Assembly: GCA_947494565.1 (NCBI GenBank)
Contig: CANLVG010000015.1
Location: forward strand, 1 to 64,000
Source: an uncultured Flavobacteriaceae bacterium
GTDB taxonomy: Bacteria > Bacteroidota > Bacteroidia > Flavobacteriales > Flavobacteriaceae
DNA: 64,000 nucleotides
Direction of reading: 5' to 3'
Both the position numbers and the translations under genes were made by a program. The notes below the pieces were generated by a model, which saw only the letters and a list, made by a program, of their open reading frames with translations, did no database searches and was not told where the DNA came from. Position 1 is the stretch's first letter; each line of letters begins with the position of its first letter. This document shows, piece by piece, positions 18,504 to 64,000 of this stretch.

Positions 18504-18728
18504 ATGACTTCTAGAGAATTTAGAAAAAAAGTAGTTGAAATTTCAAGTGAGGAATTATTAATCAAAATGGAGAAACTCCTTTCTGAACATGGGTTAGAAG
18601 ATGTAAAAGTAAATGGATTTGAAGTTTCACCAAGATTTTTACTGTCTGACAAATCGGAATGTGAGGCAGCAGGAAGAGAGTGGATATGTCGAACTAAGAA
18701 CGGTGTAACTCGTTGCAGATGTCAATAA
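18504..18728 (+). CDS. 74-residue protein with a Cys-rich tail
   Basis: A small protein whose first ~40 residues are helical and charged (MTSREFRKKVVEISSEELLI) and whose C-terminus is CEAAGREWICRTKNGVTRCR-CQ, with four Cys. The leader-plus-Cys-tail layout resembles ribosomal peptide precursors or disulfide-bonded secreted peptides, but there is no signal peptide or Gly-Gly cleavage site. It lies 3 bp after the lipoprotein gene and 5 bp before the protease-nuclease ATG, so it could be a substrate, activator or inhibitor of that protease. Function unknown. Confidence 0.6.
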   Translation: MTSREFRKKVVEISSEELLIKMEKLLSEHGLEDVKVNGFEVSPRFLLSDKSECEAAGREWICRTKNGVTRCRCQ

Positions 18729-18733
18729 TTTAT

Positions 18734-29513: not shown

Positions 29514-29945
29514 ATGAACGAATATCCGCTACCCAAATTTCACTTTCAAGTAGAGTGGCAAGGTTCCAGAATGGGATTTACGGAGATTACCGGTCTTGAT
29601 GTTGAAACCGAGGTAATCGAATATAATGAGGGTTCCAGTAAGGAATATCACTCCCTTAAAATGCCAGGTAGGCAAAAATTTGGGAACATCACCTTGAAAC
29701 GAGGGGTCATGCCCTTGGATAACGAATTCTTTGTCTGGTGGAATACGGTAAGCCTCAATAAAATAGAACGAAGGGATTTGACGATAAGCCTGTTGAATGA
29801 AAAACATGAGCCGACGATGGTTTGGCGTGTAAAAAATGCCTGGCCTGTTAAAGTAATTGGGACGGACCTAAAAGCTGATGGTAATGAGACGGCCATAGAA
29901 TCTTGCGAATTGGCCCATGAAGGGTGCGTCGTCAGCAATGAATAA
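29514..29945 (+). CDS. eCIS inner tube protein 1 (gp19/Hcp-like)
   Basis: A 143-residue tube subunit: FHFQVEWQGSRMGFTEITGL is the standard T4 gp19-like start, followed by KFGNITLKRGVMPLDNEFFVW and KNAWPVKVIGTDLKADGNE. Stacked hexamers form the conduit. The strict similarity in layout to the next gene reflects an old duplication; this copy is likelier to be the major tube. Confidence 0.92.
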   Translation: MNEYPLPKFHFQVEWQGSRMGFTEITGLDVETEVIEYNEGSSKEYHSLKMPGRQKFGNITLKRGVMPLDNEFFVWWNTVSLNKIERRDLTISLLNEKHEPTMVWRVKNAWPVKVIGTDLKADGNETAIESCELAHEGCVVSNE

Positions 29946-29950
29946 ATGCT

Positions 29951-30409
29951 ATGCCAAGTGCCAGTCAAACATATTATCCGCCCGTAGGTTTTCATTTTAG
30001 CGTGGTCTTTGACCTTCCTGGTATCAGTGACCTTGACTTTAAATTCAAGGAGGTTTCAGGGATGAATATGGAACTTGAAGAAGAATCGGTGACCGAAGGA
30101 GGCGAAAACCGATTTATCCAGAAGCTTCCTGTACGGGCGCGCTATCCCGATCTAATCCTCAAAAGAGGGTTATTGACCAATTCCGTACTGTATAAATGGT
30201 GCGAAGACGCCATAGTCAACCTAGACATACAACCCATTACCGTTTGGGTAAATCTGTTGAACGAGCTACACGAGCCCTTACAACAATATGTTTTTCAGAA
30301 TGCATGGCCCAAAAAGTGGAGTATCAGCGATTTCAATGCAGAGAGCAGCGATGTGGTATTGGAAACCTTAGAGCTGGCATATCAATTTTATAGAATAGAA
30401 ACCCCATAG
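29951..30409 (+). CDS. eCIS inner tube protein 2 (Pvc5-like initiator)
   Basis: A 152-residue tube paralogue: YYPPVGFHFSVVFDL, DFKFKEVSGMNMELEEES, YPDLILKRGLLTNSVLYKW and FQNAWPKKWSISDFNAESSD. In PVC the second tube protein (Pvc5) forms the first layer on the baseplate; that role is inferred from order (after tube 1, before the LysM protein). Spacing from tube 1 is 5 bp. Confidence 0.88.
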   Translation: MPSASQTYYPPVGFHFSVVFDLPGISDLDFKFKEVSGMNMELEEESVTEGGENRFIQKLPVRARYPDLILKRGLLTNSVLYKWCEDAIVNLDIQPITVWVNLLNELHEPLQQYVFQNAWPKKWSISDFNAESSDVVLETLELAYQFYRIETP

Positions 30410-45297: not shown

Positions 45298-48200
45298 ATG
45301 AAAACAAAAACAGCACCGACTCTTGCTTCTACACGGTCTACCCCGACCACTAAAAAAATCACATCCCGACCTTACTTTAAAAAGTCGGTTCAACCGAAAT
45401 TAAAAACAGGCCAAAAAGGAGATAAATATGAAATGGAGGCCGACCGAATGGCGGATGCCGTCGTAAACGGGCAACCAAAGGACCAAGAACTTACGATCAC
45501 TACCAACGGAATTCAAAAGTCAGGATTATTTGGTCAGATAACCAAAGGAGTACAACTTCAGGAAGAAGATGTACAGCCCAAGGAAGAAGAAGAAATTCAA
45601 AGGGAACCAGAAGAAGTCCAAACCAAAAAAGAGGAAGAAAAAATTCAAAAAGAGGGAGAAGAGGAACTTCAGTTAAAGATGGAAGAGGAAGCACTCCAGA
45701 AAGAGGAATCGGAGGAATTGCAAACCCAGTCCGAAGAAGAAGTCCAGACAAAAAAAGAGAAGGAGGAACTTCAAAAGAAGGAAGACGAACTGGAAGTTCA
45801 AAAAGAAGGGAAAGAGGAAGCACTTCAAAAGGAAGAAAACGAACAGGGTGCGAATGAAACGGAGCTCGAAGTTCAAAAAGAAGGGGAAGATGAAGCGCTT
45901 CAAACGGAGAATCAAGATGAAATACAGGAGCAAGAAGATGAAAAAGTGCAACAAGCGGGAGATTCTGACGGTAGTTTTGTCGATGATACCGTTAGTACCC
46001 AAATAAAACAACAGCAGGGAATCGGAAGCCCTTTGCCCGAAACGGTGAAGGCAAAAATGGAAAATCAATTTCGTGCCGATTTTAGCGGTGTTACCATACA
46101 TACCGACGATACTGCAGTCGTGCTTGCCCAGATGCTCAATGCCAAAGCGTTTACCCATGGTAGCGATGTATACTTCAATAAAGATCAATTCAAACCCAAT
46201 ACACGCGATGGAGATCATCTGCTGGCCCATGAACTAACCCATACCATTCATCAGGGAGCTGTAAGCGAAAAAGAGGAACAAGTAATTCAATTGGAAGAGA
46301 CCGAAGGGGAAGGTTACTTGATACGCCCTGAAATCCTCAAGGCAATCAGTATTGCCAGGGGTGAAATCGGAAAAATCAATTCAAAGTTGATCAATGCAGA
46401 TAAGACCCGCATTGGTTGGGAGAAGTTGTGTCAGATTTTTTTCACTGCTTTTGGTAACAAAGAAGTAATTCCTGAGCAGGTCATCAAGTACATTACAATG
46501 ACCTCAGTGGGGGGCAAGACCAAAGATGCCCTGCCTAGCTGGTGTGGGATTTTTGTCTGGTGGGCCCTTAAAAAGGCAGGGGTACCCTTGCCTGACTGGA
46601 AGTTGGGGGAAAACATATTGCAACATACCATTCCCAGAAAGCCAGGAGAGCTTCCTAGAAAAGGTGACATTGCCTTTGACTTTAAGCCCAATCAACACTT
46701 TGCCATGGTTACTGGTGTAGAAGATCCTGCTTCCGCCGCTGGAAAAAGTTATAACGATATAATGGTAGCCACCATTAATGGGAATACCGCGGGTAACGAT
46801 AATTTGGGAGGTCAGGTAGAGGAAAAATGGGAACCCATTGGTAAATGGCGCCAAGATCACGCTTCCGGCTTTATGGATCCCATAGGAAAGCTGAATATGC
46901 CCGATGTACCCCTAGTGCAAACGGCAGTAACCCCTGATGAAGAATCGGAAGTGCCATCCCCAGTATCCGAAGAACAGGTTCCGACCGAGGAGGAAATGGC
47001 TTCCGAAGCAGAAAAACAACAGCAGTTAGATGACCTTGAAAATCAGGATATCACTACCATACCCGATGCGCCCGCCGAAGGTGAGACGGTCATAGCTGTA
47101 GAACTCCCACCACTACCACAAGTAACCGATACCGAGGAGGTAGCTGAAATTGAGGCCTTAGACCTAGAGGGAAGCTCAGATGAGGCCATGGTAAAATTCA
47201 CAATGGCAGGGCCATCCCAGATCGCCGAAAACTATAGTGGTCTAGGTGGTGAGCTAGAGGGAAAGGTAAATAATGAAAAAAAGGAAATTGCCGATAATCC
47301 ACCGAAAATCGAGGTGCGCACTAGTGGTACATTGGATGAAGGCATTGTACCTCCGGATCAGCTCGGTTTGCCGTCGGGTCAGGAAATTTCGGATGGATCC
47401 TCAGGGAACGACCCAGGAGATTTGCAAGCCACTCCCCATGAGGACAAAGGTCCTGTACCCACCAACAAGGAGAACGAAAAACTGTTGGACAAAAATGACA
47501 ACGAAGGCTTCTTAGGTTGGCTAAAAAACAATATGGCCAGTTTTATGGCCAAAATACGCACTACGGATCAAGGGGTCAATACTAGCGCGGGAAGCAGGCC
47601 TAATGTGGAACTGGAAGGGGATGCCGATCCCGAACGGATGAAAAATCAGCGCTCAGAGGCCGATAGCCAAATAACAGGACAACGGGATGTTGTGACCGAC
47701 AAACTCAAAAACCATCCGGGCCAGTCGAATGTGCAACCGAAGGAAGTCAATGCCGAAAAGACGGCTACTGTAAATGGGGAACCTACAGCTGAAGTCCTGA
47801 CTGAAGAGCAATCAAGTCTCAATGACTTTGCCGAGGCTCCCTTACCCAAAAATGTGAGATCCAAGGCTGATGAAATGATGCAACCCGGATTGCACGCCAA
47901 TTTAGACGAAGCAAAAAAGAATGCACAAGATGCGGGGAATAAAAGGGATACAGACAAACAAGCCGAAATAACGCATGCCGAATCGGAGGCGAAAAAGACA
48001 AGTGAGAGTGCTGATAAAGAACAGCGAAAAATAGTTCTGGACAATCGAAAAACAATTGCCGATAAACAAAAAAAGGGCATCGAAGATGCCTACGGACACG
48101 TCAATGATTTCAAGAAAGATGCCGATACCGAACAGACCAATAACAACAAAGAAATCGGGGAAAAAGTAAAAACCTCCGAGGCCGATGCCAAGAAAGAACT

Positions 48201-50607
48201 CGAGGCTGGCGAAAAAAAGGCAGAAGACAAAAAGAAAGAAAAAGAAAAGGAAGCTGCTGATAAAAAGAAAGAACTGGAGAAAGACCAAAAGAAAGATAGC
48301 TGGTGGGACCGTGTTAAAAGCGCCGTAAAAAAAGCGGTAAAGGTCATTACCGATGCCATCGATACCATCTTCACGGCCCTTCGGAAAGCAGTTGCCGACA
48401 TTATCAAAGCCGCCAAAGACCTTGCCATTGGTTTGATCAACAAAGCTCGAAATTGGATAGTTGATAAACTCAACAAATTCCGAGATTGGGCCAAGAGCCA
48501 AGTAGATAAGTATTTAAAAGAACATTTTCCAGGTTTGGCAAAGGCCATCAATGATGGCATAGATAGCGTGGTGGATACAGCTATCGACGGGGTCAATTTT
48601 GTGGCCGACGAGGCTATCAAGGCAGTAGAGAAACTGGCCGCAGCTCTAGCTGCGGCTCTTGACAAGATATTGTCCGTATATCAAGAAGCTTTGAAAGCAG
48701 CCGTAAGAATTGCTGGTGCCGTGGCCACCGGAGACTTTGCCGAAGCATTAAAAATCGCGATCCAAGCAGCCTGCGATATTGCAGGTATCGATTCACAACC
48801 CATTTTTGATTTTATAGATAAGGCAAAAAATCTGATCATGGATATTTTGAAGGACCCGAAGTCGTTCCTTAACAATGTCATGGCCGCAGTAGGCGGAGGA
48901 GTACGCGGATTTTTCAAGAACATAAAACAACATTTGATTTCAGGCTTGATAGAATGGCTTACCGGAACCCTCTCGGAAACGAGTATCAAGCTTCCCGAAA
49001 CCTTTGATATCATGGGCATTTTCGATATGGTAATGCAGATCTTAGGCCTTACCTATGCAAACATCAAAGCGCGTATCATCAAGAAGTTCCCCCCAGCAGA
49101 GAAAGTATTCTATGTGGTAGAAGAGGGCCTTGCGATTATTAAGCGTGTCTTTGATGAAGGGCCACAGGTGCTATGGGAAATCGTAAAGGAAAAGCTGGCA
49201 AACTTGAAGGAAATGGTGATGGGGGCCATTAAGGACTATATCATTAAAACGGTGGTTTTTGAAGGCATTACCTGGCTACTAGGGCTACTAAATCCTGCCG
49301 GGGCGCTAGTGAAAATCTTAAAATTGGCATTCGACCTCATCATGTGGCTGGTCGAGAAGTTTCAACAAATCATAGACTTTGTAAAATCGGTATACGATTC
49401 TGTGGCAGCCATTGCCAGTGGTCAGATCGGGGCGGCTTCAAAGGCCGTCGAAGATGCTATGGCAAGAAGTCTTCCCGTATTGATCAGCATGCTCGCCGCC
49501 ATGGCGGGACTTGGTGGAATAGGACAAACCATTCAAAAACTGATTCAAAAGGTTACGGATCCGATCAATAAAATTATCGATGGATTGATCGACAAGGGCA
49601 TTGCCCTAGTCAAGAAATTTCTCAAATCAGGAAAAGATGTAGCCAAGAAAGTAAAAGATAAGCTCATCAATTGGTGGAAGGCCAAGAAGAGCTTCAAAGG
49701 CAATGATGGTAAACAACATAAACTCTACTTTAGTGGGGAAGGAAAGTCTGCAAAATTAATGGTAGCGAGTAATCCCGGGCCTTATGCGACATTTCTCGGT
49801 AAGGTCGAAACAGGTACTGATAATGACAAAATAAACGCTAAGAAGGAGGCAGTGCGGATAGCCGATGAGATTTTCAAACTTCAGCAAAAGCATATCGGTG
49901 TTAAGGACGAAGCGGAAAAGAAAAAACAGGAAGAAGACCGAGCCAAAGCCATTCAGAATCTTTTAGTCGAATTAAGTAAACATACGGAGAAGTTGTTCGG
50001 TTCCGAAATGCCGGAGTCCGATGTAAAACACGATAAAAAAAGCGAAGGAGGCGCAGATCAGGGAAAACTTGTGGATGCTAAAATACTGACCAAAAAGCTT
50101 CCTAAACAAGGTACGACAGGTTCCGTACCCGACTCCTCAAAAAATAAGGTTTTCGATAAGTTAAACTATAGGCGTTCGGGCAAAGGAAGTTATTATGTGA
50201 AAGGCCACTTGCTCAATCATAATCTACACGGTCCGGGAAAATGGTTCAATATGGTGCCATTATCACGTAAAGGCAACTCCAATCATGAGAAACAAGTAGA
50301 AAGTAAGGTAAAAAAAGCGGTTTTAAAGAAAGGAGAAGTGGTTAGATACAAGGTAATACCGACTGGCGGCTACCCAAAATTCGCTCCGAAATCAGAAGAA
50401 CTGAAAAAGAAGAATGTACCACTGTCGACCATTGAAAAAATGGAAGCGGTCGGGGAGGCAGAGCAGTACGTCCCTAGAGGATTGCAATGTGAAGCGGTGG
50501 TGTTGGAGGAAAAAGACGGAAAATGGGTCGGAAAGGAGACCTTGTACAATGGTACTGTCTTGAATCCAGTAGAACAGACCGAATCCAAGTATAAAATAAA
50601 AACATAG
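45298..50607 (+). CDS. Giant eCIS cargo candidate: DUF4157 + CHAP-like + nuclease
   Basis: A 1769-residue multidomain protein. Residues 25-60 carry VQPKLKTGQKGDKYEMEADR, the usual lead-in to DUF4157. Residues ~80-225 are acidic repeats with EVQ/ELQ/ALQ every few residues. DUF4157 (about 241-325) has the zinc metalloprotease motif HELTH at 311-315. A CHAP/NlpC-like amidase module follows, with Cys416 in SWCGIFVWW and His467. Then come Pro/Glu-rich linkers, a Lys/Glu coiled coil (about 890-1010) and amphipathic helices (1010-1480). The C-terminus (about 1600-1755) is a nuclease with GHLLNHN (His1637), GPGKWFNMVPLS and NHEKQVE. It sits between tape measure and ATPase, the usual eCIS payload position; no adjacent immunity gene is seen. 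Confidence 0.8.
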   Translation: MKTKTAPTLASTRSTPTTKKITSRPYFKKSVQPKLKTGQKGDKYEMEADRMADAVVNGQPKDQELTITTNGIQKSGLFGQITKGVQLQEEDVQPKEEEEIQREPEEVQTKKEEEKIQKEGEEELQLKMEEEALQKEESEELQTQSEEEVQTKKEKEELQKKEDELEVQKEGKEEALQKEENEQGANETELEVQKEGEDEALQTENQDEIQEQEDEKVQQAGDSDGSFVDDTVSTQIKQQQGIGSPLPETVKAKMENQFRADFSGVTIHTDDTAVVLAQMLNAKAFTHGSDVYFNKDQFKPNTRDGDHLLAHELTHTIHQGAVSEKEEQVIQLEETEGEGYLIRPEILKAISIARGEIGKINSKLINADKTRIGWEKLCQIFFTAFGNKEVIPEQVIKYITMTSVGGKTKDALPSWCGIFVWWALKKAGVPLPDWKLGENILQHTIPRKPGELPRKGDIAFDFKPNQHFAMVTGVEDPASAAGKSYNDIMVATINGNTAGNDNLGGQVEEKWEPIGKWRQDHASGFMDPIGKLNMPDVPLVQTAVTPDEESEVPSPVSEEQVPTEEEMASEAEKQQQLDDLENQDITTIPDAPAEGETVIAVELPPLPQVTDTEEVAEIEALDLEGSSDEAMVKFTMAGPSQIAENYSGLGGELEGKVNNEKKEIADNPPKIEVRTSGTLDEGIVPPDQLGLPSGQEISDGSSGNDPGDLQATPHEDKGPVPTNKENEKLLDKNDNEGFLGWLKNNMASFMAKIRTTDQGVNTSAGSRPNVELEGDADPERMKNQRSEADSQITGQRDVVTDKLKNHPGQSNVQPKEVNAEKTATVNGEPTAEVLTEEQSSLNDFAEAPLPKNVRSKADEMMQPGLHANLDEAKKNAQDAGNKRDTDKQAEITHAESEAKKTSESADKEQRKIVLDNRKTIADKQKKGIEDAYGHVNDFKKDADTEQTNNNKEIGEKVKTSEADAKKELEAGEKKAEDKKKEKEKEAADKKKELEKDQKKDSWWDRVKSAVKKAVKVITDAIDTIFTALRKAVADIIKAAKDLAIGLINKARNWIVDKLNKFRDWAKSQVDKYLKEHFPGLAKAINDGIDSVVDTAIDGVNFVADEAIKAVEKLAAALAAALDKILSVYQEALKAAVRIAGAVATGDFAEALKIAIQAACDIAGIDSQPIFDFIDKAKNLIMDILKDPKSFLNNVMAAVGGGVRGFFKNIKQHLISGLIEWLTGTLSETSIKLPETFDIMGIFDMVMQILGLTYANIKARIIKKFPPAEKVFYVVEEGLAIIKRVFDEGPQVLWEIVKEKLANLKEMVMGAIKDYIIKTVVFEGITWLLGLLNPAGALVKILKLAFDLIMWLVEKFQQIIDFVKSVYDSVAAIASGQIGAASKAVEDAMARSLPVLISMLAAMAGLGGIGQTIQKLIQKVTDPINKIIDGLIDKGIALVKKFLKSGKDVAKKVKDKLINWWKAKKSFKGNDGKQHKLYFSGEGKSAKLMVASNPGPYATFLGKVETGTDNDKINAKKEAVRIADEIFKLQQKHIGVKDEAEKKKQEEDRAKAIQNLLVELSKHTEKLFGSEMPESDVKHDKKSEGGADQGKLVDAKILTKKLPKQGTTGSVPDSSKNKVFDKLNYRRSGKGSYYVKGHLLNHNLHGPGKWFNMVPLSRKGNSNHEKQVESKVKKAVLKKGEVVRYKVIPTGGYPKFAPKSEELKKKNVPLSTIEKMEAVGEAEQYVPRGLQCEAVVLEEKDGKWVGKETLYNGTVLNPVEQTESKYKIKT

Positions 50608-50633: not shown

Positions 50634-52001
50634 ATGCAAAACAAGCTATTACCTTCCAATGCCCAAAATTTAGAACATGCCTTAGGTTTTCTTCAAAAAG
50701 CCATAGACTTTCAGCTACGGCATTATTATGATAATGGCAAGGCCTTGCTAGAGAGTTACGATACTGATGATTTGGAATACTATGATGATGATTCGGCTTT
50801 TGCTCAGTTTATCAAGACACATACCCCGAATTTTGCGGAGTTTATAACATTGCTCTTAGCACTGGCGCCACATCTACAACCCGATTTCCTTGAAAAATGT
50901 ATTAAAAAAGCGATTCCAGATTCCGGGGATTACACCGAAATTGGGGGGCAACGTGATTCTGAAGGTCGAGGGTTTCTCCCTACCGGCGAAACCGCGCTGT
51001 TCTTGCTCGCCGGTGATCATCTTAACTTTAGGTTTGCCGTACAGCAATTGTTCTCGGCCGATCATTGGTTCGCTAGGGAGGAAATATTGACCTTGGAAAA
51101 GCCCAAAGAGGGCGACCCGTTTTTTAATGGAAAAATCATTATGAATCCCGATTATATCGAATTGTTTACAACTGGTAAAATATCCAATCCCGAGTTTGGC
51201 CCTTCTTTTCCTGCCCAACATATTACCACTAAAATGGATTGGAGTGATCTTGTACTTTCCCCACTGGTAAATGAACAGATTCATGAGCTAAAGAATTGGG
51301 TGGAGCATGGTCAAACCCTTATGGAAGGCTGGAAGATGGATAAAAAAATAAAACCAGGCTACCGTGTACTTTTCTGCGGTCCACCAGGTACTGGAAAAAC
51401 CTTAACCGCAACACTCTTGGGCAAACATACCGGAAAGATGGTGTATCGCGTAGATCTGTCTACCGTGGTTTCAAAATATATCGGGGAAACGGAAAAAAAT
51501 CTAGAAAAGTTATTCAGCAAGGCCGCTAGTAAAGATTGGATACTTTTTTTTGATGAGGCAGATGCTCTATTTGGGAAGCGAACCAGTGTGAACGATGCCC
51601 ATGATCGCTATGCCAATCAGGAAGTCAGTTACCTCTTACAGCGGGTTGAAAATTTTGATGGTCTGGTAATACTGTCGTCCAATTACAAGGCCAATATGGA
51701 CGAAGCCTTTTTAAGACGATTCAATGCCATCATTAGATTCCCATTTCCAACTTTCGAGGAACGTCTTGAAATCTGGAAACGCTCTTTTCCCCAAGTGACT
51801 ACGTTTAAAGGAAATATAGATATTCCTGAAATTGCGGCATATTATGAGCTATCGGGGGGAAGTATCATCAACGTTGTACAATACGCCTGTTTGAAAACAC
51901 TTTCTTCTCATGAAACCGAAATTAGCTTGGAATCGATTCTAAAAGGCATTGAACGTGAAGTTGAAAAAGATGGAAAGATTTTCAAAAAATTAATTGCTTG
52001 A
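50634..52001 (+). CDS. AAA+ ATPase of the eCIS (Pvc15-like)
   Basis: A 455-residue AAA+ ATPase: N-terminal helical domain (1-210), Walker A GPPGTGKT at 249-256, Walker B FFDEAD near 305-310, sensor 1 VILSSN and the arginine finger region EAFLRRFNAIIRFPFP. Pvc15 family members are thought to help load cargo or assemble particles in the producing cell. It lies 26 bp after the cargo gene and is the last recognisable gene of the operon. Confidence 0.93.
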   Translation: MQNKLLPSNAQNLEHALGFLQKAIDFQLRHYYDNGKALLESYDTDDLEYYDDDSAFAQFIKTHTPNFAEFITLLLALAPHLQPDFLEKCIKKAIPDSGDYTEIGGQRDSEGRGFLPTGETALFLLAGDHLNFRFAVQQLFSADHWFAREEILTLEKPKEGDPFFNGKIIMNPDYIELFTTGKISNPEFGPSFPAQHITTKMDWSDLVLSPLVNEQIHELKNWVEHGQTLMEGWKMDKKIKPGYRVLFCGPPGTGKTLTATLLGKHTGKMVYRVDLSTVVSKYIGETEKNLEKLFSKAASKDWILFFDEADALFGKRTSVNDAHDRYANQEVSYLLQRVENFDGLVILSSNYKANMDEAFLRRFNAIIRFPFPTFEERLEIWKRSFPQVTTFKGNIDIPEIAAYYELSGGSIINVVQYACLKTLSSHETEISLESILKGIEREVEKDGKIFKKLIA

Positions 52002-54920: not shown

Positions 54921-54983
54921 GCCACTCCCGGCTAATGAACATAAAACATCAAAACCAAGTTGGTTTCAACTAAATGCACTCCT

Positions 54984-55337
54984 ATGGAAACTCAAAAAAA
55001 ATGGATCGTATTCTTAGTATTGATCGTAACCTTTTCCACAACTTCCTGTGTAAGTACAAGAGTAGAGGCAAGCCCTTATCAAGACAGTGTCGAAAATTTG
55101 GAATGCCAAAAAGAATCAAGTTGGAGTTATTTATGGGGCCTTAATCAAAAGCGAATCGATGTCAACCCGGAAGTTGCCGGTAATGATTGCCCTTGTCACG
55201 AGGGGGCCATGAGTTGGGTAGTGGTAAAATCTTCATTTACCGATTCGCTGCTTGGTCTGATCACGCTTGGAATTGTAAACCACCGCACGGTCACCTACGG
55301 CTGTGCCCGCCCACAAGGTGGTGATGGATCTATGTAA
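54984..55337 (+). CDS. Bor-like small lipoprotein
   Basis: A 117-residue lipoprotein from ATG 54984 (METQKKWIVFLVLIVTFSTT then SC, the lipobox); an upstream TTG start is less likely. The mature part has SWSYLWGLNQKRIDVNPEVA, SFTDSLLGLITLGIVNHRTV and a late YGCARP, the pattern of Bor/Iss-like surface lipoproteins. In E. coli Bor is linked to serum resistance; the role here is unknown. It is followed 18 bp later by the FAD oxidase gene. The C11 tract upstream may tune expression. Confidence 0.7.
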   Translation: METQKKWIVFLVLIVTFSTTSCVSTRVEASPYQDSVENLECQKESSWSYLWGLNQKRIDVNPEVAGNDCPCHEGAMSWVVVKSSFTDSLLGLITLGIVNHRTVTYGCARPQGGDGSM

Positions 55338-55355
55338 AACTAAAACCTAAAAATT

Positions 55356-56930
55356 ATGCTTCCAAAAGGCATCACTAAGCTTCCTATTCAACAATGGAGC
55401 AATAAACACGAGAATTTCACACATCAGCTAGTACCTGATACTTCCTTTAAAGTACGAAATCCGAAAATGGGTTCGCGAAGGGAGCGGTATTTGGCGACCA
55501 CCAAAAACTTTCAGTGGCTGATCAAGGAAGCTACAACCAAAAATTTTAAACTCAGGGCCATCGGCAGTGGCTGGTCGTTCACCAAAGTAGGAGTTACCGA
55601 AGGTGGATTGGTCGATACGGCTTCGCTTAATTTTTCCTTTCCGATCATTCAGAAATATGTAAGTTCGAACTATGCCAAAAATCCTGAGGATTTATATTTT
55701 TTACAATGTGGTACTATTATTCATGAAATAAATACGCGCCTCGCATCCAAGAACCCGCCCCGTTCTATTAAAGCATCTGGTGCTAGCAACGGACAAACAA
55801 TCGCAGGTGCCTTGTCAACAGGAACCCATGGTGCGGCTTTTAAAGTAGGTGCCATACCCGAGTTTGTTGTGGGGCTACACCTGATTACCGGGGCCGACAC
55901 CCATATTTGGCTTGAACGGGCCTCTTATCCTATAGCATCTCAAGAGTTGGTCGATTGGCTTGATGCGGATTTGATTCAAGACGATGCCCTTTTTAATGCA
56001 GCACTGGTAAGCTTTGGTAGTTTTGGCTTTATACATGGGGTCATGATCGAGACCGAACCTCAGTTTTTATTGACCGAACATCGCCTGGGGAATGTACCTT
56101 ATGCCGACCCTTTAAAAAAAGCGATGCAAACCTTGGATTTTTCCGATCTGAGTTTACCCGGTACTACTGGAAATTCGGATATGTATCATTTTGAGGTACT
56201 TTTTAATATGCATGACTTTGAACCCAACAATCCTTCAAAAGGAGGTTTTTTAAAATATATGTTCAAAAAACCCTTTACGCCCTCACATACCCCATTACAA
56301 CGTACCAACGACTTCACCTATGGAGATGATCTTTTAGGAATCATCTCAACGGTATTGGATAAACTACCGGGCTCCGGAAAAATTATTCCGCAAATGGTCA
56401 ATCTCATGTTCGGACTAGCTTTTAAGCCTGAACCACCGAGAACCGGTACGGTACGTGAAATGTTCAACTATACTAAATTTAGGGGCAAAGTCGCCAGTGC
56501 GGCTATTGCCATTGATATCAAAGATTCTCCCAAGGCCGTAGCACTGGCCATTGAGGTAAACGAACATACTCCCTTTCCTGGCGGACTATCATTGCGCTAT
56601 GTAAAGGGTACGCAGGCCACGTTGGGCTTTACAAAATTTCCCAACACCTGTGTGCTTGAAATGGATGGGGCAGATGGCCAGGTGGCCCGAGACTACTATG
56701 AAGCGGTCTGGAAACGGTTGGAACAGGAGAACATTCCCTATGCACTACATTGGGGTAAAATCAACTTTAACCTCAATAAAACCCGAATCAAACAAATGTA
56801 TGGATCGGCCTCCGTGCAATCATGGATCGATGCACGAAATCAATTATTGAGCAGGCCGGCACTTTCAGTATTTAGTAATAAGTTTATCGAAAAATGCGGA
56901 TTAGATACCATCCATGCGGCAATTGTGTAA
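55356..56930 (+). CDS. FAD-linked oxidase (gulonolactone/arabinonolactone oxidase-like)
   Basis: A 524-residue flavoprotein of the vanillyl-alcohol oxidase superfamily. The FAD-binding (PCMH) domain shows LRAIGSGWSFTKVGVTEGGL, IKASGASNGQTIAGALSTGT and HGAAF; the GTHG stretch is typical. The C-terminal substrate domain ends YALHWGKINFNLNKTRIKQM, as in D-arabinono-1,4-lactone or L-gulono-lactone oxidases. The substrate is not readable; a sugar lactone, sterol or other alcohol is possible. There is no signal peptide. It likely shares a transcript with the lipoprotein. Confidence 0.8.
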   Translation: MLPKGITKLPIQQWSNKHENFTHQLVPDTSFKVRNPKMGSRRERYLATTKNFQWLIKEATTKNFKLRAIGSGWSFTKVGVTEGGLVDTASLNFSFPIIQKYVSSNYAKNPEDLYFLQCGTIIHEINTRLASKNPPRSIKASGASNGQTIAGALSTGTHGAAFKVGAIPEFVVGLHLITGADTHIWLERASYPIASQELVDWLDADLIQDDALFNAALVSFGSFGFIHGVMIETEPQFLLTEHRLGNVPYADPLKKAMQTLDFSDLSLPGTTGNSDMYHFEVLFNMHDFEPNNPSKGGFLKYMFKKPFTPSHTPLQRTNDFTYGDDLLGIISTVLDKLPGSGKIIPQMVNLMFGLAFKPEPPRTGTVREMFNYTKFRGKVASAAIAIDIKDSPKAVALAIEVNEHTPFPGGLSLRYVKGTQATLGFTKFPNTCVLEMDGADGQVARDYYEAVWKRLEQENIPYALHWGKINFNLNKTRIKQMYGSASVQSWIDARNQLLSRPALSVFSNKFIEKCGLDTIHAAIV

Positions 56931-57276: not shown

Positions 57277-60200
57277 TTATTGACCTTGTACCATCTCCTT
57301 TAAAGCCTCTTTTATATCTTGAAGACTGTTTTTCTGATCTTTGTTCAAATCTATATGCAATAGAAAATCGATTTGATGAATTTCCATCAACAAATACTTA
57401 GGGCTGTAGAACATGCGATGCATAGTTTTGAAACGCCCGATAATGCTTTTCTTTAATTTATCAAAATCGGTAGTGGTCAGCAACAATAGGCAGATATCTA
57501 CTTCCGCCATGCCCTTTAATACCGAAATATCTTGATCGCTTTCATCAAAATCCTCAAGTTCTTTACAGCGTGCCTTTAAATATGCCTCTACATCCTCAAT
57601 GGCCTCTATGTCCGGCATTTTTTGCAAACGCTCCAATAGGGTTCCCGAATGTAGCTTTTCGAGTAAATAGCCTATGAGTACACAATTTGAAAAGGCATCG
57701 AGAAAATCTCCACAGTGACGATCCGCACATCCGGTTAAAGCGTCTAAATAAAACCCCCATGCTTTTTCCAGGTACGCTATCCTTTCCGTTGTAGCTTTAT
57801 ATCGGGAGGCCAATTTGAATACATTGCCCACGATATTGGACCGACTCGGATTTTTTCCTATGAGTATCAGGTTATATACCTTATTCACATCTGCATCCAA
57901 ATTGTTTTCTTCAAGATGATGACTCTTTATAATGCAGAAACGTTCCAATGCTTTAATGGAAAAATCGCCATCGGACGAGCTGAACAATTCTTCGAACTTG
58001 TAAAGGGCAATATCGAACATGCCCAATTCATCGTAAATCAGGGCTTCACTTTCCAATATATTGGCATCCAGTAATTTCGCTTGCTCTGCCCTATCGATAA
58101 TATTGTTCAGTTTCTTTAAAATCCGTTCTTTCGTCCTTCTTTTGTATTGCATGGATACGAGAAGATTGTCAAGATCTGTATAGACCTGCGATGCCACCAC
58201 GTACTCGTGATTTTTTTGCTTCATTTGGCTGTTCTCCTTAAACTGATAAAACTGGCTGCCATAACATTGGTAAGCTCCCCAAGTATTGGTATTTCTGTAT
58301 TTTTGAAAACAGGCCATTCTAGCCAATTGTACCGCACGGCCAAATCTATAGCCTTCCAACATTTTGTCATAAAAGATATCGGAGAAGGTCTTGGCGGCCG
58401 CATCATCCACGGCCCAGCCCGAAATTACAATGGCCTTTACTCCCATCTCGATTAGCTGCGTCCCGACATTTGCAGCCAAACGATAACGTTCTCTCGAATA
58501 GATATCGTCATCGCGATTGATAACACCTGAGAAGCAGCAATTGATAAAAACAAATTCGGGAACATACCCCAACTGCTTGATCTTTGCCGCATCGATACAA
58601 ATACCATTGCCAATGGCAATTCCCGCCTTCCCCTCCTCTGGGGAATAGATGCCATGGCCGGCAAAATGCAATATTTTATACTTGCTCGTAAAGAGTTCCT
58701 GCATAATCGCCGCAGTGTTACCTTTAATCAAGGCATCGACGGCGTAGCCGTTTACACTTAATTTATTCGATAAACGTATACCTTCCTCTTCCGCCGCAGG
58801 CAGTTGGGGCAAGTTATCGTTTTCATATAGTGGATCCCCTATGACCAAGGCGTTATAGTTGCTAGTAGCCGTTTTTGTAAGGTTATCGTTGCTATCGGTC
58901 ATCAATTGGCGTACAAAGCCCGAGTTCACCGAAACCGGAGTCTCATCGGAAATGTAGTCATAGAACATTTCCCAAGGAATCTGGGCCGCTTGCTTATCAA
59001 GTTTGATAAGTACATTGTTCTGGTTTCTAAGGATATCCTTGAATTCATTGGGAATCATTAACTCGAATAAGGCCTTTGAAAGGCGCTTGTCCCATTTTGA
59101 ATTGGCCGCCATTTGTTCCAACAAGATATTGATATCGTCCATTGCGATAAAAACCTCTTCTCGTTGAACACTAGCATAACCTCCTGACGAATTATATGCA
59201 AAACCTATGGTTTTGGGACGATAATTGACGTTTTCGTCATCATAAGGTTCTTTGATAGCACTGATGTTGAGCTCATGCCACCAATTTTCTTGACTATCCT
59301 TTAAAAGCTGTTTCTTTTTAGCTCCCTGTTTCTTGGCCACACCAGATTGAAGCTCAATGGACAGGCGGTCATCAAGATTTACCATCTTACTCAAACTCCA
59401 ATAGGCCATACTAGCAATGGATTCATAATAATTGACGAATTCTATCTCTTTAATGGGATGAAGGCCTTCTCCGGTACTTTTAATATAGGTATTCGCGTTG
59501 GTAACTCCCATTAATATACCTCTTAACGAGGCTTCCACCGATAGTTTCCCATAACCGATGCCGATTAAAATAAACGAGATTCCCCTGGCAAATCTTTTGG
59601 CTTTTGGCAGCGTATAATTATCACGCATGAACATGGCATACTTAAGGGTCGCCATTTCCACGGTCTTTGATAAAAGATAAGGTGTCAGGGTATTGGTACT
59701 TCCGAGGCCACAAACAATTGCTCCATTGGGGTGTGTATTCAGATTGAAAAAAACTTCGCTTTCGCCTATTTTACCGGGATAGTATCCGATATCAAGTCTT
59801 TGTGAAAGTCGTTTGGCCAAATAATTGTCCAGGGCCTTCTCGGCACTGAAAATCATATCTCTATGGAAATGGCCGACCATTACCGGATAACTGGAAATTT
59901 TCAGATCTCCATTCACCACGGCAACCTTGACCTTGTCCGGAATCGGAGCCGAAGATTTTTCATTTCCGAACAATGCATTGATGACCCGGTTGACATCTGT
60001 TGCGGGTTCGGCAAATTCATGTACCAAGCTTATAACCTCACCACCCCTATGCACCGGAGGGTTCATACTGAACTTAGCCGTTTTCCCATATTTGAGAATA
60101 TCTTCCACCCCTTCGAAAATATAGAGCTCATTGGCCAAATCACCATGTGTGGTATTACAATAGAAAACACTGGTCGGTTCCAAGGCCCCAGGGATACCGG

Positions 60201-62589
60201 ATTGCCAAGTGACACTACCATCACCATGTGATGTGGCCAGGTACTCCAACTTTTTTCGCCTTGAAAAAAATCGGTCCTTCAATCGATAATTGAAGACGGT
60301 CCGATCTGCCTTTCCACAGACGTAGTACACATTTTTAAGATCGTCCTTTGCTAGTGTATTCAAAAAACCGTTTACCTGCTGCCTATAGGTATGAAATGCC
60401 TGTAGTTGTTCTTTATTCGTTTTTGGCTGTGGCATAGGGCCAATGTCCGCCTCTTTTTTCAGGTCTTCCCAGAACTTGATTTTCGAGAAATCAAGGCTTT
60501 CATCAATAGGCAAAAGTTCCAGCACACCCGGGTACTTCCAAAAAACATTCAGCAGGTCTTCTTTATCGTTCTTAAAGTCGATCATGGCCAATTGTTTCAC
60601 CCTCCTACTATGGCCGGTAAGTACTTCCATAATCAAATAGGAACCCATCCAGGGCGTTCCCAACATCACGAACTTATTTTGCGTATTTGATTTAAACGTA
60701 TTCCACGTATTCGGATGGTCCATCATTAACTGACGTGTGACTAGACCGCCCATTGAGTGGCCTACAATATGAACGGATCTTCCGGGAAATTTAAAGGTGG
60801 TTTCCAGCACCTTTTTAAACTTCGTCGCAGCGTCTTTCAAGGGCTTCCTCCAGTCGTAGGGAAAGGTTATAACATCATAGTTTTTTGACAAGTGCTTTGC
60901 GAAATCGTCATAGTACTTTTTAATTACGCCGTCCGCGACAACCTTTGTCGACTTTATTCCGAGGTTTTTTGACAACCCCCCTTTATTTATCTCCCGCATA
61001 TCCACCCATTGCTTATCACTGTTTTTACTAAGGGTAGAGCCCATGATTCCCGGAATTACGACAACAATATCACGAATTCCCGAAAGGTGTTCTTCACTGT
61101 AGTGTACCCCGTCTAATGACATTAGATCTAACAAAACACCTCTTTGCCCCTCTTCTTTCAAAACCCTTTCGTAGCTCGGTGCAAGGGATGCTTCCGTAGC
61201 TTTCAATGCTTCCAATACGGCTCGACTGGTATTACTATTTCCAAAATAGTTAAAGTGATTTGTTTGCCCATCCCGCGATATAAAATCATATACCCCGCCC
61301 AGGCGTGGTGTTCCATGAATCATTCTATCGGTATCGACCACTAGGTCGTTGGCAGTCCTATAAAAGAGGTTCGATAATAGTACTTTTAGCGAATCGAGGT
61401 TAAACCCTTCGGCCTCTGCATCACCTGAAATGGTATAAAGATCACTGACCACGGCAGTTCCTGGATTGTTCAACGCCTTTTGAAAATAGGAATCGGGCAC
61501 CATACTGTTCAATCCGGGCATTACCTCGGGATCGGCTTTTAATTTTATAAGTTCGAGAAGAAATGATTTGGCCAATGTATAAAGAGGAGTTGCCGCTCCT
61601 AGGGCAAGTCCTACGGCATTGAGCATCAAATTGAAAAAGTGATCCACTCTTCTAGACAAAATAGTGGTTCCGCTTGAAGGAGCGGCCACTCGTACAACCT
61701 TGCGAACGACAATGCGCCTTTGGTGGGCCAATTTATTGATTTCCAACATAAGCTCATACGACACGGTATCCTTTTCCTTAACAATTCCCAATTGGACATC
61801 ATCAAAACCAATAACCGAATTTCTATGATCACACTTTGCCAAGATATCGGCCACCAAACCGCCTCTAGAGTGACTGACAATATCGATATGAATGCCGTTA
61901 GTGCAATGCTCCAGAAAATCAATGGCGTTCTGTATAGGGCTTACCGAAAGTGTTTGGTGTTCCAATGCCAAAATCTGACCGCCGTAAGTATCGGACAGTT
62001 CTCCCCAAATGGCAGTACCCCCTTTTTGTAATTGACCGAAGGCCTCCTTTGTGGTTGACAAGGTTCCGTGAATAAGCACCAAATGAGGCTCTAAGGTCTC
62101 TAAATTCTCAGGGGCTCGCTTAAGTTCAAAGTTGGCATCTACCTTAAAAAGGCCTGGTCTAGGTTGTACTTTTGTATCGTAGCCCTCGGCCAATTGGCGT
62201 CCGGTGACCTTTGAAACATCCTGAATCGATTTAAGGCCAAAAATGCCGATGGTCTTTATCAATATACGTTTGATGACTCCTCGAGAGGTATCGGTACTGC
62301 CGACATTTGCATCAAATACGAACGATTCTTCACCAGTAGAACGCAAGTTGTTGAGATCCCCATAGATTTCGGTCACATCCTCAGGATGCCCAATCCACTC
62401 CGACCCATCTTGAAAGGTTAACAAAACCACTGAATCATCATTGACGGCAAAGGTCTTTTTTATGCTTTTAGATCTCGTAGTCGAAAGCTCGACAGTGGCC
62501 AAATTTTCGAATTTGGTATAAATGCCGTCCGGAAGTATATTTTCCGAACCATCTTTTTTTTCCACTCCATATACCTGTAACTCTTTCAT
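57277..62589 (-). CDS. Giant protein: two alpha/beta hydrolases, macro-like segment, CHAT protease
   Basis: A 1770-residue soluble protein. A beta-rich N-terminus (1-150) precedes hydrolase 1 (about 165-400; LVLIHGTLSTTKEAFG, nucleophile elbow SHSRGG with Ser241) and LCAT-like hydrolase 2 (about 515-850; VVVIPGIMGSTLSKN, ITFPYDWRKPLKD, GHSMGG with Ser612). Residues ~900-1040 include LIGIGYGKLSVEAS, resembling the upstream neighbour. A CHAT caspase-like domain (about 1240-1470) has His1312 in HFAGHG and Cys1352 in NCCFSG, so the dyad is intact. The C-terminal 300 residues are TPR-like. CHAT proteases work in bacterial cell-death pathways; lipases can destroy membranes. A protease-triggered lipase effector is inferred. 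Confidence 0.85.
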   Translation of the reverse strand: MKELQVYGVEKKDGSENILPDGIYTKFENLATVELSTTRSKSIKKTFAVNDDSVVLLTFQDGSEWIGHPEDVTEIYGDLNNLRSTGEESFVFDANVGSTDTSRGVIKRILIKTIGIFGLKSIQDVSKVTGRQLAEGYDTKVQPRPGLFKVDANFELKRAPENLETLEPHLVLIHGTLSTTKEAFGQLQKGGTAIWGELSDTYGGQILALEHQTLSVSPIQNAIDFLEHCTNGIHIDIVSHSRGGLVADILAKCDHRNSVIGFDDVQLGIVKEKDTVSYELMLEINKLAHQRRIVVRKVVRVAAPSSGTTILSRRVDHFFNLMLNAVGLALGAATPLYTLAKSFLLELIKLKADPEVMPGLNSMVPDSYFQKALNNPGTAVVSDLYTISGDAEAEGFNLDSLKVLLSNLFYRTANDLVVDTDRMIHGTPRLGGVYDFISRDGQTNHFNYFGNSNTSRAVLEALKATEASLAPSYERVLKEEGQRGVLLDLMSLDGVHYSEEHLSGIRDIVVVIPGIMGSTLSKNSDKQWVDMREINKGGLSKNLGIKSTKVVADGVIKKYYDDFAKHLSKNYDVITFPYDWRKPLKDAATKFKKVLETTFKFPGRSVHIVGHSMGGLVTRQLMMDHPNTWNTFKSNTQNKFVMLGTPWMGSYLIMEVLTGHSRRVKQLAMIDFKNDKEDLLNVFWKYPGVLELLPIDESLDFSKIKFWEDLKKEADIGPMPQPKTNKEQLQAFHTYRQQVNGFLNTLAKDDLKNVYYVCGKADRTVFNYRLKDRFFSRRKKLEYLATSHGDGSVTWQSGIPGALEPTSVFYCNTTHGDLANELYIFEGVEDILKYGKTAKFSMNPPVHRGGEVISLVHEFAEPATDVNRVINALFGNEKSSAPIPDKVKVAVVNGDLKISSYPVMVGHFHRDMIFSAEKALDNYLAKRLSQRLDIGYYPGKIGESEVFFNLNTHPNGAIVCGLGSTNTLTPYLLSKTVEMATLKYAMFMRDNYTLPKAKRFARGISFILIGIGYGKLSVEASLRGILMGVTNANTYIKSTGEGLHPIKEIEFVNYYESIASMAYWSLSKMVNLDDRLSIELQSGVAKKQGAKKKQLLKDSQENWWHELNISAIKEPYDDENVNYRPKTIGFAYNSSGGYASVQREEVFIAMDDINILLEQMAANSKWDKRLSKALFELMIPNEFKDILRNQNNVLIKLDKQAAQIPWEMFYDYISDETPVSVNSGFVRQLMTDSNDNLTKTATSNYNALVIGDPLYENDNLPQLPAAEEEGIRLSNKLSVNGYAVDALIKGNTAAIMQELFTSKYKILHFAGHGIYSPEEGKAGIAIGNGICIDAAKIKQLGYVPEFVFINCCFSGVINRDDDIYSRERYRLAANVGTQLIEMGVKAIVISGWAVDDAAAKTFSDIFYDKMLEGYRFGRAVQLARMACFQKYRNTNTWGAYQCYGSQFYQFKENSQMKQKNHEYVVASQVYTDLDNLLVSMQYKRRTKERILKKLNNIIDRAEQAKLLDANILESEALIYDELGMFDIALYKFEELFSSSDGDFSIKALERFCIIKSHHLEENNLDADVNKVYNLILIGKNPSRSNIVGNVFKLASRYKATTERIAYLEKAWGFYLDALTGCADRHCGDFLDAFSNCVLIGYLLEKLHSGTLLERLQKMPDIEAIEDVEAYLKARCKELEDFDESDQDISVLKGMAEVDICLLLLTTTDFDKLKKSIIGRFKTMHRMFYSPKYLLMEIHQIDFLLHIDLNKDQKNSLQDIKEALKEMVQGQ

Positions 62590-62635
62590 ATGATTACCGT
62601 TTTTTTATACCTTAAGTACTACTGCCCCAAATATT

Positions 62636-63298
62636 TCAGCGCCCCATTCCAAACTTTGGATATGAGCTTGTGCTATCATTAAAATCCACAATATCATTGA
62701 ATTCTTCTTTTTTTAGTGAACCTCCATAGTTGTTCTCTAGGCTTTCAAAATTTGAAGAAACATCTATAGGGTTGCTTGAACCTTGACCGATCTTAGATTG
62801 TAACGACCCGTTATTTCTGTCGAACGGCAGTTTGCCATGTTCCTCGTAAGGAATTGAAATGTTAAAAAAAATCCCATTGGTTACAATCATGCCTCTTAAG
62901 TTTTCAAGTACCCCGGTGGTAATATTATAGCTTTCTTGAAGAGACAACCTACCAGATCCAGTGCCCATTAAAGGAAGCCAAACACTATGACCTGCCAACA
63001 GCCTTAAATTATCCTTAATCGCCCGAAAAAGATTGGTCCGTACGTTCTTAGCCGTTTTTTCCTTACCTACCGTAACCACTAAAATGATGGGTTTTTTACC
63101 TTTTATTAGTGCATGGCCCAGCTCAAGGTTTATCTTTTTTAGAATACCGGTACTATGGCCATACCGCTCCAAGACCAATTTGTTAAGATCAACTTCGTTT
63201 CCATATTGGTCTATCGAAGCAAATGCTATATCGGCGTCCTTGGGGTCTATCTTAGACCGTTCCTCATATATAGGTCCCAAAGCTTCTTTCTCTGACAT
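62636..63298 (-). CDS. Macro-domain-like protein next to the CHAT protein
   Basis: A 220-residue soluble protein: DIAFASIDQYGNEVDLNKLV, KPIILVVTVGKEKTAKNVRT, and VWLPLMGTGSGRLSLQES near residues 106-122, which looks like a phosphate-binding loop of the macro/leucine-aminopeptidase-N type. The segment also matches a motif inside the CHAT protein (near 1008-1022). The last 60 residues are low-complexity and probably disordered. It starts the pair 46 bp upstream of the CHAT gene. A nucleotide-sensing partner, for example of ADP-ribose, is an attractive guess but not shown. Confidence 0.6.
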   Translation of the reverse strand: MSEKEALGPIYEERSKIDPKDADIAFASIDQYGNEVDLNKLVLERYGHSTGILKKINLELGHALIKGKKPIILVVTVGKEKTAKNVRTNLFRAIKDNLRLLAGHSVWLPLMGTGSGRLSLQESYNITTGVLENLRGMIVTNGIFFNISIPYEEHGKLPFDRNNGSLQSKIGQGSSNPIDVSSNFESLENNYGGSLKKEEFNDIVDFNDSTSSYPKFGMGR

Positions 63299-63328
63299 TG
63301 CCGCTTAATTTTTTGATTTTACGTGAGA

Positions 63329-63658
63329 CTAAAGTGGTGTTACTGCCCCGACCAGCTTAGCAAACACAATACCTATAATCTTGCTTTTGAAATGCCCCGC
63401 TTTTATTTTGTTGACACCAATCTTTACAAGACCTTTCATCGTCAATAGGTCCTTTTGACTTTTAAGCAACCACTCCAACTCCTCCTTATCAATGTCACCC
63501 TGGGCAAAGAGAAGACTCCACTTTTTTAATTTTGCCTTTGAGCTTTCCAAATATGATTTCAGGTCAGAGACTATGACCTTGCCCTCACTACCAAATTTTT
63601 CCTTGGCTTCAGAAACAATTTCCTTTTTTAATTCCGTCAACAGTTTTTCGAAATCCAT
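63329..63658 (-). CDS. Small helical protein of the CHAT operon
   Basis: A 109-residue helical protein: MDFEKLLTELKKEIVSEAKE at the start, a charged middle and a hydrophobic C-terminal helix (FKSKIIGIVFAKLVGAVTPL) that may touch membrane. No family is recognised. It lies 30 bp before the macro-like gene and 10 bp after the 106-residue gene, so the four genes look like one operon. Confidence 0.65.
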   Translation of the reverse strand: MDFEKLLTELKKEIVSEAKEKFGSEGKVIVSDLKSYLESSKAKLKKWSLLFAQGDIDKEELEWLLKSQKDLLTMKGLVKIGVNKIKAGHFKSKIIGIVFAKLVGAVTPL

Positions 63659-63668
63659 TTTTTATTTT

Positions 63669-63989
63669 TTAAAGGTTCTTTATAAACTCCGTAAGCGCGT
63701 TCTGGCTTTTCTTGTCTTTCTTAGTCTCAAAAAGTAGCATAAGATCATAGGCTTTTTCAATTTGTGGTATGGCCTCCTCGGTAAATGCAGGACTTAAATT
63801 TCCTTGTTCCTCCCACAACTTAAGGTAACTGCCTACGAGATGTTCTTCACTGCCCAACAATTCCCACATTCTGCTTGTAATCTCGTTCTTGTTTTTTCCT
63901 TTCTCGTATATCTCCATTTTTTTAAGTTGATTTCTCAAATCTGTAATCTCGTCAGCATAATCGGAAAAGGGTTCGTCACTTTTGTCCAT
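63669..63989 (-). CDS. Small helical protein, first visible gene of the CHAT operon
   Basis: A 106-residue acidic helical protein from ATG 63989: FSDYADEITDLRNQLKKMEI suggests a short coiled coil and IPQIEKAYDLMLLFETKKDK a second helix. Small helical adaptor domains often couple CHAT or caspase-like proteins to sensors in bacterial conflict systems; that link is inferred from position. The operon may start further right, outside the window. Confidence 0.6.
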   Translation of the reverse strand: MDKSDEPFSDYADEITDLRNQLKKMEIYEKGKNKNEITSRMWELLGSEEHLVGSYLKLWEEQGNLSPAFTEEAIPQIEKAYDLMLLFETKKDKKSQNALTEFIKNL

Positions 63990-64000
63990 TAAACTTAGAG

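Follow-up and report, generated by a model that had tools for sequence, protein, structure and literature searches.

A predicted CHAT protease with two lipase domains that co-occurs with contractile sheath genes in Flavobacteriaceae

In the VMAP and MoxR-vWA ternary systems, a caspase-superfamily domain is always accompanied by an alpha/beta-hydrolase gene, and EAD1-linked effectors include lysozyme- and papain-like wall enzymes, according to the cited passages of PMC7159879, which do not mention CHAT, sheath or contractile. Effectors of the caspase and alpha/beta-hydrolase kind are also listed in the cited part of PMC8195603. Particles of extracellular contractile injection systems (eCIS) are described as leaving the cell by lysis (passages of PMC8894135, PMC8213781 and PMC12961389), a release to which toxins may contribute (passage of PMC8213781), and the eCIS called Afp has a lysis cassette of endopeptidase, holin and lysozyme (passage of PMC12961389). 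Here we describe a gene, CL, that may join two fields, CHAT proteases and contractile injection. It lies in a stretch of 64,000 nucleotides (positions 1 to 64,000 of contig CANLVG010000015.1, assembly GCA_947494565.1; hereafter the window) from an uncultured Flavobacteriaceae bacterium.

CL is predicted to combine a CHAT protease and two lipases with intact catalytic residues in one chain. Contractile sheath genes are the strongest association found for it, a connection that is the main one missed by an earlier note on the same DNA, which had described a candidate conflict operon. This co-occurrence suggests a built-in lysis switch tied to the sheath. Our best single reading, with a probability of roughly 40%, is that CL acts as a cytosolic, sheath-coupled executioner of self-lysis.

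Domain architecture and conservation of CL

The CL gene (57277-62589, minus strand) encodes 1770 residues and was recognized from its open reading frame (ORF) call, domain matches and catalytic residues. Its domains, all encoded on the minus strand, are a DUF7379 alpha/beta-hydrolase (residues ~170-449, 61243-62082; Pfam E 3.6e-36; Ser241-Asp415-His445), an LCAT/PLA2G15-like lipase (~509-825, 60115-61065; Pfam LCAT E 3.8e-14; Ser612-Asp790-His815), a macro/Peptidase_M17_N-like domain (~883-1077, 59359-59943), a CHAT caspase-like protease (1169-1445, 58255-59085; E 4.9e-25; His1312/Cys1352) and a helical TPR-S/ASK1-like regulatory array (~1465-1770, 57280-58197). The Pfam matches, which all exceed their curated cut-offs, cover residues 544-682 for LCAT, 1169-1445 for CHAT and three stretches for DUF7379, the best of these being 170-254; CHAT scores 89 bits against a cut-off of 24 and LCAT 53.2 bits against 21. 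A profile of the first half of CL matched Group XV phospholipase A2 (best E 2.3e-9) and LCAT in the PDB; a profile of residues 871-1770 had no PDB match at E<=1.

The eight predicted catalytic residues are identical in 32 of 32 aligned full-length sequences, which comprise 29 Bacteroidota sequences (that of the window among them) and single sequences from Ensifer, Azotobacter and Paracoccus. They were also invariant in an earlier alignment of 23 sequences, repeated on 22. Together with the Pfam matches, this bears out the description in the earlier note of a 1770-residue protein with two lipase-like hydrolases and an intact CHAT dyad, and its concern that homologues might lack the catalytic residues applies to none of the full-length ones. 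Three shorter relatives (L113, L014 and L114; L denotes loci and G genomes) are without one or both lipases, and all three keep the CHAT dyad. A CHAT row was found in 22 of 22 CL family members and the TPR-S array in 19 of them. The pairwise NG86 ratio of nonsynonymous to synonymous substitution rates (dN/dS) is 0.06 for CL, which indicates purifying selection; the values for LP148 and H109, two small neighbors discussed below, were saturated. One CL variant (L162:8197-14772) has 2191 aa and is ~400 aa longer than the others at its C-terminal end.

In a structural model of CL (pTM 0.41, which limits trust to single domains), the CHAT domain is structurally nearest to a SAVED-CHAT filament (PDB 8tl0, which we take to be a SAVED-CHAT protease effector). 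SAVED itself gave no row in Pfam scans of CL and its family members. This structural likeness speaks for an anti-phage role, in which CL would be the CHAT effector of abortive infection and an orphan sheath would be a sensor or decoy that co-assembles with contractile-phage tail parts and triggers cell death. Against it, CL matched 0 families of PADLOC-DB 2.0.0 at E<=1. A reading of CL itself as a phage gene was rejected, as it had no match in 50,697 phage records.

Co-occurrence of CL with contractile sheath genes

Among 199 family genomes, about one per genus, the sheath model PF17482 matched 10 of the 10 that encode CL and 27 of the 189 that do not (p = 1.6e-8; the Fisher tests used here ignore tree structure), and restriction to near-complete genomes gave p 3e-8. 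When an orphan-sheath protein was used as query on the same sample, 35 genomes matched, 10/10 with CL and 25/189 without. The tape-measure gene CIS_TMP was found in 6/10 CL genomes against 24/189 others (p 1e-3), and a sheath without CIS_TMP in 4/10 against 5/189. The sample thus holds 10 genomes with CL, 37 with a sheath and 30 with CIS_TMP, where 36 of the 37 sheath matches and 29 of the 30 CIS_TMP matches pass the cut-off and PF17482 also detects sheaths of prophages and type VI secretion systems (T6SS). With each genome counted once (we took G026 and G465, and likewise G608 and G456, to be the same genomes), a sheath is present in 26 of 29 CL genomes, including 3/3 from other families, and the baseplate gene gp25 in 18 of 29, including that of the window, and not in the other 11. 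A set of 23 CL genomes contained PF17482 sheaths in 20, CIS_TMP in 13 and T6SS-iii TssD in 3. CL therefore tracks the sheath more closely than it tracks tape-measure or baseplate genes.

Ecological coincidence could produce such an association if CL were a conflict gene of general use in certain marine Flavobacteriaceae, in which eCIS also tend to occur. The plasmid-borne CL relatives compared have no nearby sheath (5 of 28 records, and two more by annotation), and most CL genes are either distant from the sheath or on a different contig. The distribution of CL is patchy as well: the full-length gene occurs in 2 of 59 relatives (the window genome and one other), in 0 of 13 same-genus genomes and in 10 of the 199 family genomes, with further CL loci among the 20 of a larger collection (two contig-end fragments of it, L034 and L036, are excluded from all counts). 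Nevertheless, we regard coincidence as improbable, because the sheath counts come from a sample with about one genome per genus, sheaths without CIS_TMP are enriched in CL genomes, the same small genes adjoin sheath and CL, and CL stands beside a sheath in L033.

Neither gp25 nor CIS_TMP was detected in six sheath-bearing CL genomes (G281, G453, G457, G461, G608 and G622), two of which, G281 and G622, are single-contig assemblies. No full cluster was present within the ~10 kb flanks of these six sheaths (in G453 the contig ends 1.9 kb past the sheath), and their orphan status is defined by the Pfam models of CIS_TMP and gp25 together with this flank. The orphan locus of G281 keeps two tube genes, and the orphan sheath pair from two Tamlana genomes has a dN/dS of 0.22. 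In a tree of 56 sheaths, which has long branches, the six orphans and the CL-adjacent sheath of L033 make up seven rows that need three label changes. The placements are a supported clade of four (98/95), a long-branch pair of L033 and L167, and L104 beside the eCIS sheath of the window (96/97). At least two to three branches of this tree carry lone sheaths without a detected injection machine.

It is tempting to speculate that such a lone sheath is the sensor or trigger of a death enzyme with a caspase-like protease and two lipases, so that intracellular sheath assembly, perhaps on phage tail parts, would be read as a lysis signal. We offer this as a tentative possibility. If it is true, there would be an immune or lysis pathway with phage-tail polymerization as its switch.

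The orphan sheath of L103 was rejected as a plain prophage remnant, since its best listed phage matches reach 40% coverage at ~34% identity; the same sheath, the only one compared in this way, is ~39-45% identical over nearly its full length to many eCIS sheaths. Behind a lone sheath at L102:8642-13380 come a probable membrane protein and a protein of 784 aa; a patatin-like reading of the latter was dropped, as it has no Pfam match and the motif likeness was by eye only. Reduced contractile clusters with sheath, tubes, hub, PAAR and a short tape-measure protein occur in L168 and L106; in the genomes concerned, gp25 was not found (G603) or lies a few kb from T6SS-iii TssD genes (G450).

The window itself carries an eCIS cluster (28024-52001, plus strand, Pfam) that looks complete. 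It comprises a sheath (28024-29481), tubes (29514-30409), CIS_tube (30589), hub (31267), gp25 (33318), CIS_TMP (44010), an eCIS_core effector (45298-50607) and an AAA gene (50634-52001), and ends 3 kb before the flavin adenine dinucleotide (FAD) oxidase cassette described below and 5.3 kb from CL. The 1769-aa effector carries eCIS_core, unlike CL, in which Pfam gave no eCIS_core/DUF4157 row at E<=1. This effector also has a weak C-terminal Endonuclea_NS_2 match below the cut-off and may be an eCIS nuclease toxin.

Such an arrangement could mean that CL and its partner enzymes are injection-system cargo, that is, toxins against other cells, with the lipoproteins as immunity proteins. The co-occurrence of CL with both sheath and CIS_TMP is consistent with this idea, as are the complete-looking eCIS next to CL and the signal-less wall, lipid and nucleic-acid enzymes that adjoin lipoproteins; 68 predicted eCIS toxins have a peptidoglycan-binding domain, as reported in the cited passage of PMC11297309. 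However, CL has no eCIS_core domain, a regulatory half of TPR-S and CHAT would be odd for cargo, and the idea is weakened by the six sheath-bearing CL genomes without detected gp25 and CIS_TMP, two of them single-contig. We therefore consider cargo rather unlikely. Delivery by T6SS-iii as a general reading was rejected, with TssD in only 3/23 CL genomes and none in the window genome (of the T6SS types, T6SS-iii was the one searched).

Gene neighborhoods of CL and its relatives

Four minus-strand ORFs lie at 57277-62589, 62636-63298, 63329-63658 and 63669-63989, as the earlier note described. The compact operon it proposed agrees with their calls, strand and spacing, and its extent was underestimated: the operon runs past 63989, beyond the window, to PG407, a PG_binding_1 gene of 407 aa on the same strand as CL (C15:64319-65542) and 203 bp upstream of the LP148 gene. 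The intergenic gaps from PG407 down to CL are 203, 10, 30 and 46 bp.

Two of the small proteins had been taken as helical. This stands for H109 (109 aa; 63329-63658, minus strand), a small soluble helical protein whose homologues adjoin sheath genes elsewhere; its maximum 19-residue hydropathy is 1.24, without a transmembrane segment in a crude scan. The 106-aa protein turned out to be a truncated call of LP148, a lipoprotein gene on the minus strand cut by the window end (63669-64000 in the window; C15:63669-64115, true start C15:64115). Its full ORF has 148 aa and starts with a hydrophobic signal and LGCAS, presumably a lipobox. By the same crude hydropathy, the tested enzymes have no N-terminal signals and the lipoproteins have them.

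The third, a 220-aa protein (62636-63298, minus strand, ORF call), has a fold without assignment and could not be confirmed as macro-like; the macro-like fold lies inside CL instead. It had no Pfam row at E<=1, no PHROG match at E<=0.5 and no PDB sequence match at E<=10, and its single NCBIfam row (E 0.036) is chance-like. Compared with the macro-like part of CL it shares one motif at 2.2% profile probability, and its single-sequence fold (mean pLDDT 32.6) is uninformative, so that a macro fold is neither supported nor ruled out. Two of the three small proteins gave weak PADLOC rows only (Csm3, E 0.025; Csx23, E 0.017), taken as chance. LP148 and H109 were rejected as phage genes, with no match in phage records, and pattern matches to H109 and the 220-aa protein in viral contigs were not confirmed in any case.

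We rejected the idea that the three small genes are conserved partners of CL: blastp (1e-3, 1e-4) found none of them in other CL loci. The neighborhood conservation that the earlier note put forward as a check is thus not seen for these genes. What recurs is a cassette of wall-binding protein, Bor-like lipoprotein and FAD oxidase. Of 28 other CL loci, 11 have a homologue of PG407 (the PG411-type protein, 405-411 aa) that begins 3-23 bp downstream of CL, and a Bor-like lipoprotein and an FAD oxidase come next in 9 of those 11; homologues of the oxidase (33-37% identity) occur in 9/28 loci. In the window, the latter two are convergent to CL at 54960-56930, both on the plus strand: the Bor-like lipoprotein at 54960-55337 (Lambda_Bor E 9.4e-5, below the curated cut-off; homologous to a gene of L019, E 4.9e-5) and the FAD_binding_4 oxidase at 55356-56930 (Pfam E 1.2e-7; part of the conserved cassette in relatives). 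G568 has a CL relative that converges on a PG gene with 72% identity to PG407. Other loci have alternative downstream partners, namely Endonuclease_NS (L025 and L031), an M19 peptidase behind a small gene (L030) and a KAP NTPase (L163). PG407 matches PHROG endolysins via its binding region (E 4.8e-7). The PG family retains an IHW...SAGCQ motif, whose likeness to L,D-transpeptidases is our assumption; the second half of PG407 has the H...SxGC motif only.

Homologues of the small window genes reappear next to sheaths. Behind the orphan sheath of L104 come homologues of LP148 (61% identity) and H109 (72%). The L167 locus runs from its sheath through an LP148 homologue (47%) and an H109 homologue (47%) to a PG_binding_1 plus Muramidase protein (E 3.3e-63); these genes share a strand with hardly any space between them, and the Muramidase has no signal peptide. 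In L033 (Subsaximicrobium), a sheath gene lies 124 bp after CL and is followed by the H140/H582 pair, which precedes CL in L019, L020, L026 and L045. This sheath gene (L033:15387-16974) is split into two overlapping frames, by decay or a sequencing slip. The link of LP148 and H109 to sheaths is partly ascertained, as the surroundings read were those of CL and of sheaths.

CL relatives also occur on proteobacterial plasmids (28 records; neighborhoods come from 7 of them, one without annotation). An Azotobacter relative adjoins type I restriction-modification genes, a Rhizobium relative adjoins TIR-nSTAND1-WD40 proteins and a GH108 muramidase (GH108 + PG_binding_3), another Rhizobium relative adjoins SIR2 and a non-specific endonuclease, and a Ruegeria relative adjoins a SIR2/AAA protein. 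Paracoccus relatives lie among metabolic, transport and fimbrial genes, a context that does not speak for defense. No sheath was found near the relatives in 5 of the 28 records by ORF comparison or in the annotation of two more; this covers the plasmid records and not their host genomes. Upstream of CL in G568 is a TIR gene whose CHASE2 match falls below the cut-off.

The conflict context proposed by the earlier note is thus retained for relatives of CL, which have TIR-nSTAND1, SIR2, KAP NTPase and Endonuclease_NS nearby, and is not retained for the three small partners, which are not co-conserved with CL. These neighbors, together with the type I restriction-modification and TIR/CHASE2 genes, also favor abortive infection, as do the pairing of caspase and alpha/beta-hydrolase in VMAP conflict systems (cited passages of PMC7159879) and the six CL genomes that have a sheath and no detected gp25 or tape-measure gene. 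Most of this evidence is shared with self-lysis. However, CL is also found together with complete eCIS clusters, in which the sheath plays an ordinary role, and we consider abortive infection possible but doubtful.

At two loci other genes accompany CL: the relative in G568 (L166:13753-17657) adjoins two TIR genes, one of them with a weak CHASE2 match, and a TPR protein, and in Dokdonia pacifica (L025:15407-18365) Endonuclease_NS, another CHAT protein and a probable membrane protein come after CL. Elsewhere in the window, a 710-aa protein with Trypsin_2 and Endonuclease_NS (18713-20845) lies in a low-GC stretch (10-26 kb, 32-35% GC) with two N6_N4 DNA methylase genes, which looks like a separate conflict locus.

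Possible mechanism and comparison with known systems

We propose a model of sheath-coupled self-lysis, preferred because of the dependence on a sheath and the presence of lipoproteins and lytic enzymes. Signal-less lipid, wall and nucleic-acid enzymes that are fused to or near a caspase-like protease and a TPR array suggest that the action takes place inside the producing cell. The TPR array and the macro-like domain would read a sheath-linked signal, such as assembly, polymer state or a partner, and the signal would switch on the CHAT protease. Cleavage of CL, of a neighboring enzyme or of both may then free the lipases onto the inner membrane, after which an endolysin-like partner (PG407/411 or the muramidase) could reach the wall. 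LP148, the Bor-like lipoprotein and H582 may have a role at the outer membrane or serve as guards. In cells with a full eCIS, lysis could release the particles; where there is only an orphan sheath, the pair of CL and sheath may persist as a death switch.

Several observations weigh against this model. Only 3 of 26 genomes have CL and a sheath on the same contig no more than 30 kb apart (positions were read by hand and the cut-off was set after the data were seen): that of the window, where the eCIS ends 5.3 kb from CL, G465, where the sheath is 17 kb away, and L033, where the two are adjacent. In the other 23 of the 26 sheath-bearing CL genomes the sheath is far away or on another contig, with different contigs in most drafts. 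The PF17482 search found no sheath in three CL genomes (G454, G455 and G463). CL is not a general release factor, because 24 of the 30 CIS_TMP-positive genomes of the sample have no CL. Orphan-sheath genomes have nothing obvious to release, and since the gp25 search covered CL genomes, orphan sheaths cannot be assigned as special to them. H109 is not a classical holin, because it has no hydrophobic segment. The catalytic class of PG407 is based on its motif alone, and FAD oxidase, Endonuclease_NS and M19 neighbors suit killing more than plain lysis.

How Bacteroidota release their particles and what lone sheaths do are questions that the cited eCIS passages do not answer, and CL is a concrete candidate here. 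If sheath-coupled action of CL is true, eCIS release would have a caspase-like switch, or sheath polymers would act as immune triggers. In the literature searched, no paper joins a CHAT domain with contractile injection and none contains DUF7379; the main texts of PMC8213781 and PMC11297309 make no mention of lipase, CHAT or caspase.

CL differs from the described systems in several respects. Compared with the SAVED-CHAT effector of cyclic oligonucleotide-based antiphage signaling (CBASS), it has no SAVED row, and its single chain additionally holds two lipases, a macro-like domain and a TPR-S array. In the VMAP and MoxR-vWA systems, as far as the cited passages describe them, the hydrolase is a neighboring gene, whereas in CL two lipases and CHAT are fused; MoxR and vWA were not found by Pfam among the six window proteins scanned, and other CL loci were partly scanned. 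As in Afp, lytic genes stand beside a contractile injection system, with a sheath and a muramidase gene as neighbors in L167. Unlike in Afp, for which the cited part of PMC12961389 mentions no caspase-like protease or lipase, H109 has no hydrophobic segment and CL also occurs without a detected full particle. Like the eCIS_core/DUF4157 toxins (passages of PMC8213781 and PMC11297309), CL co-occurs with eCIS, with wall and nucleic-acid enzymes at hand; unlike them, it has no eCIS_core, has a CHAT/TPR-S half and is kept where gp25 and the tape-measure gene are undetected.

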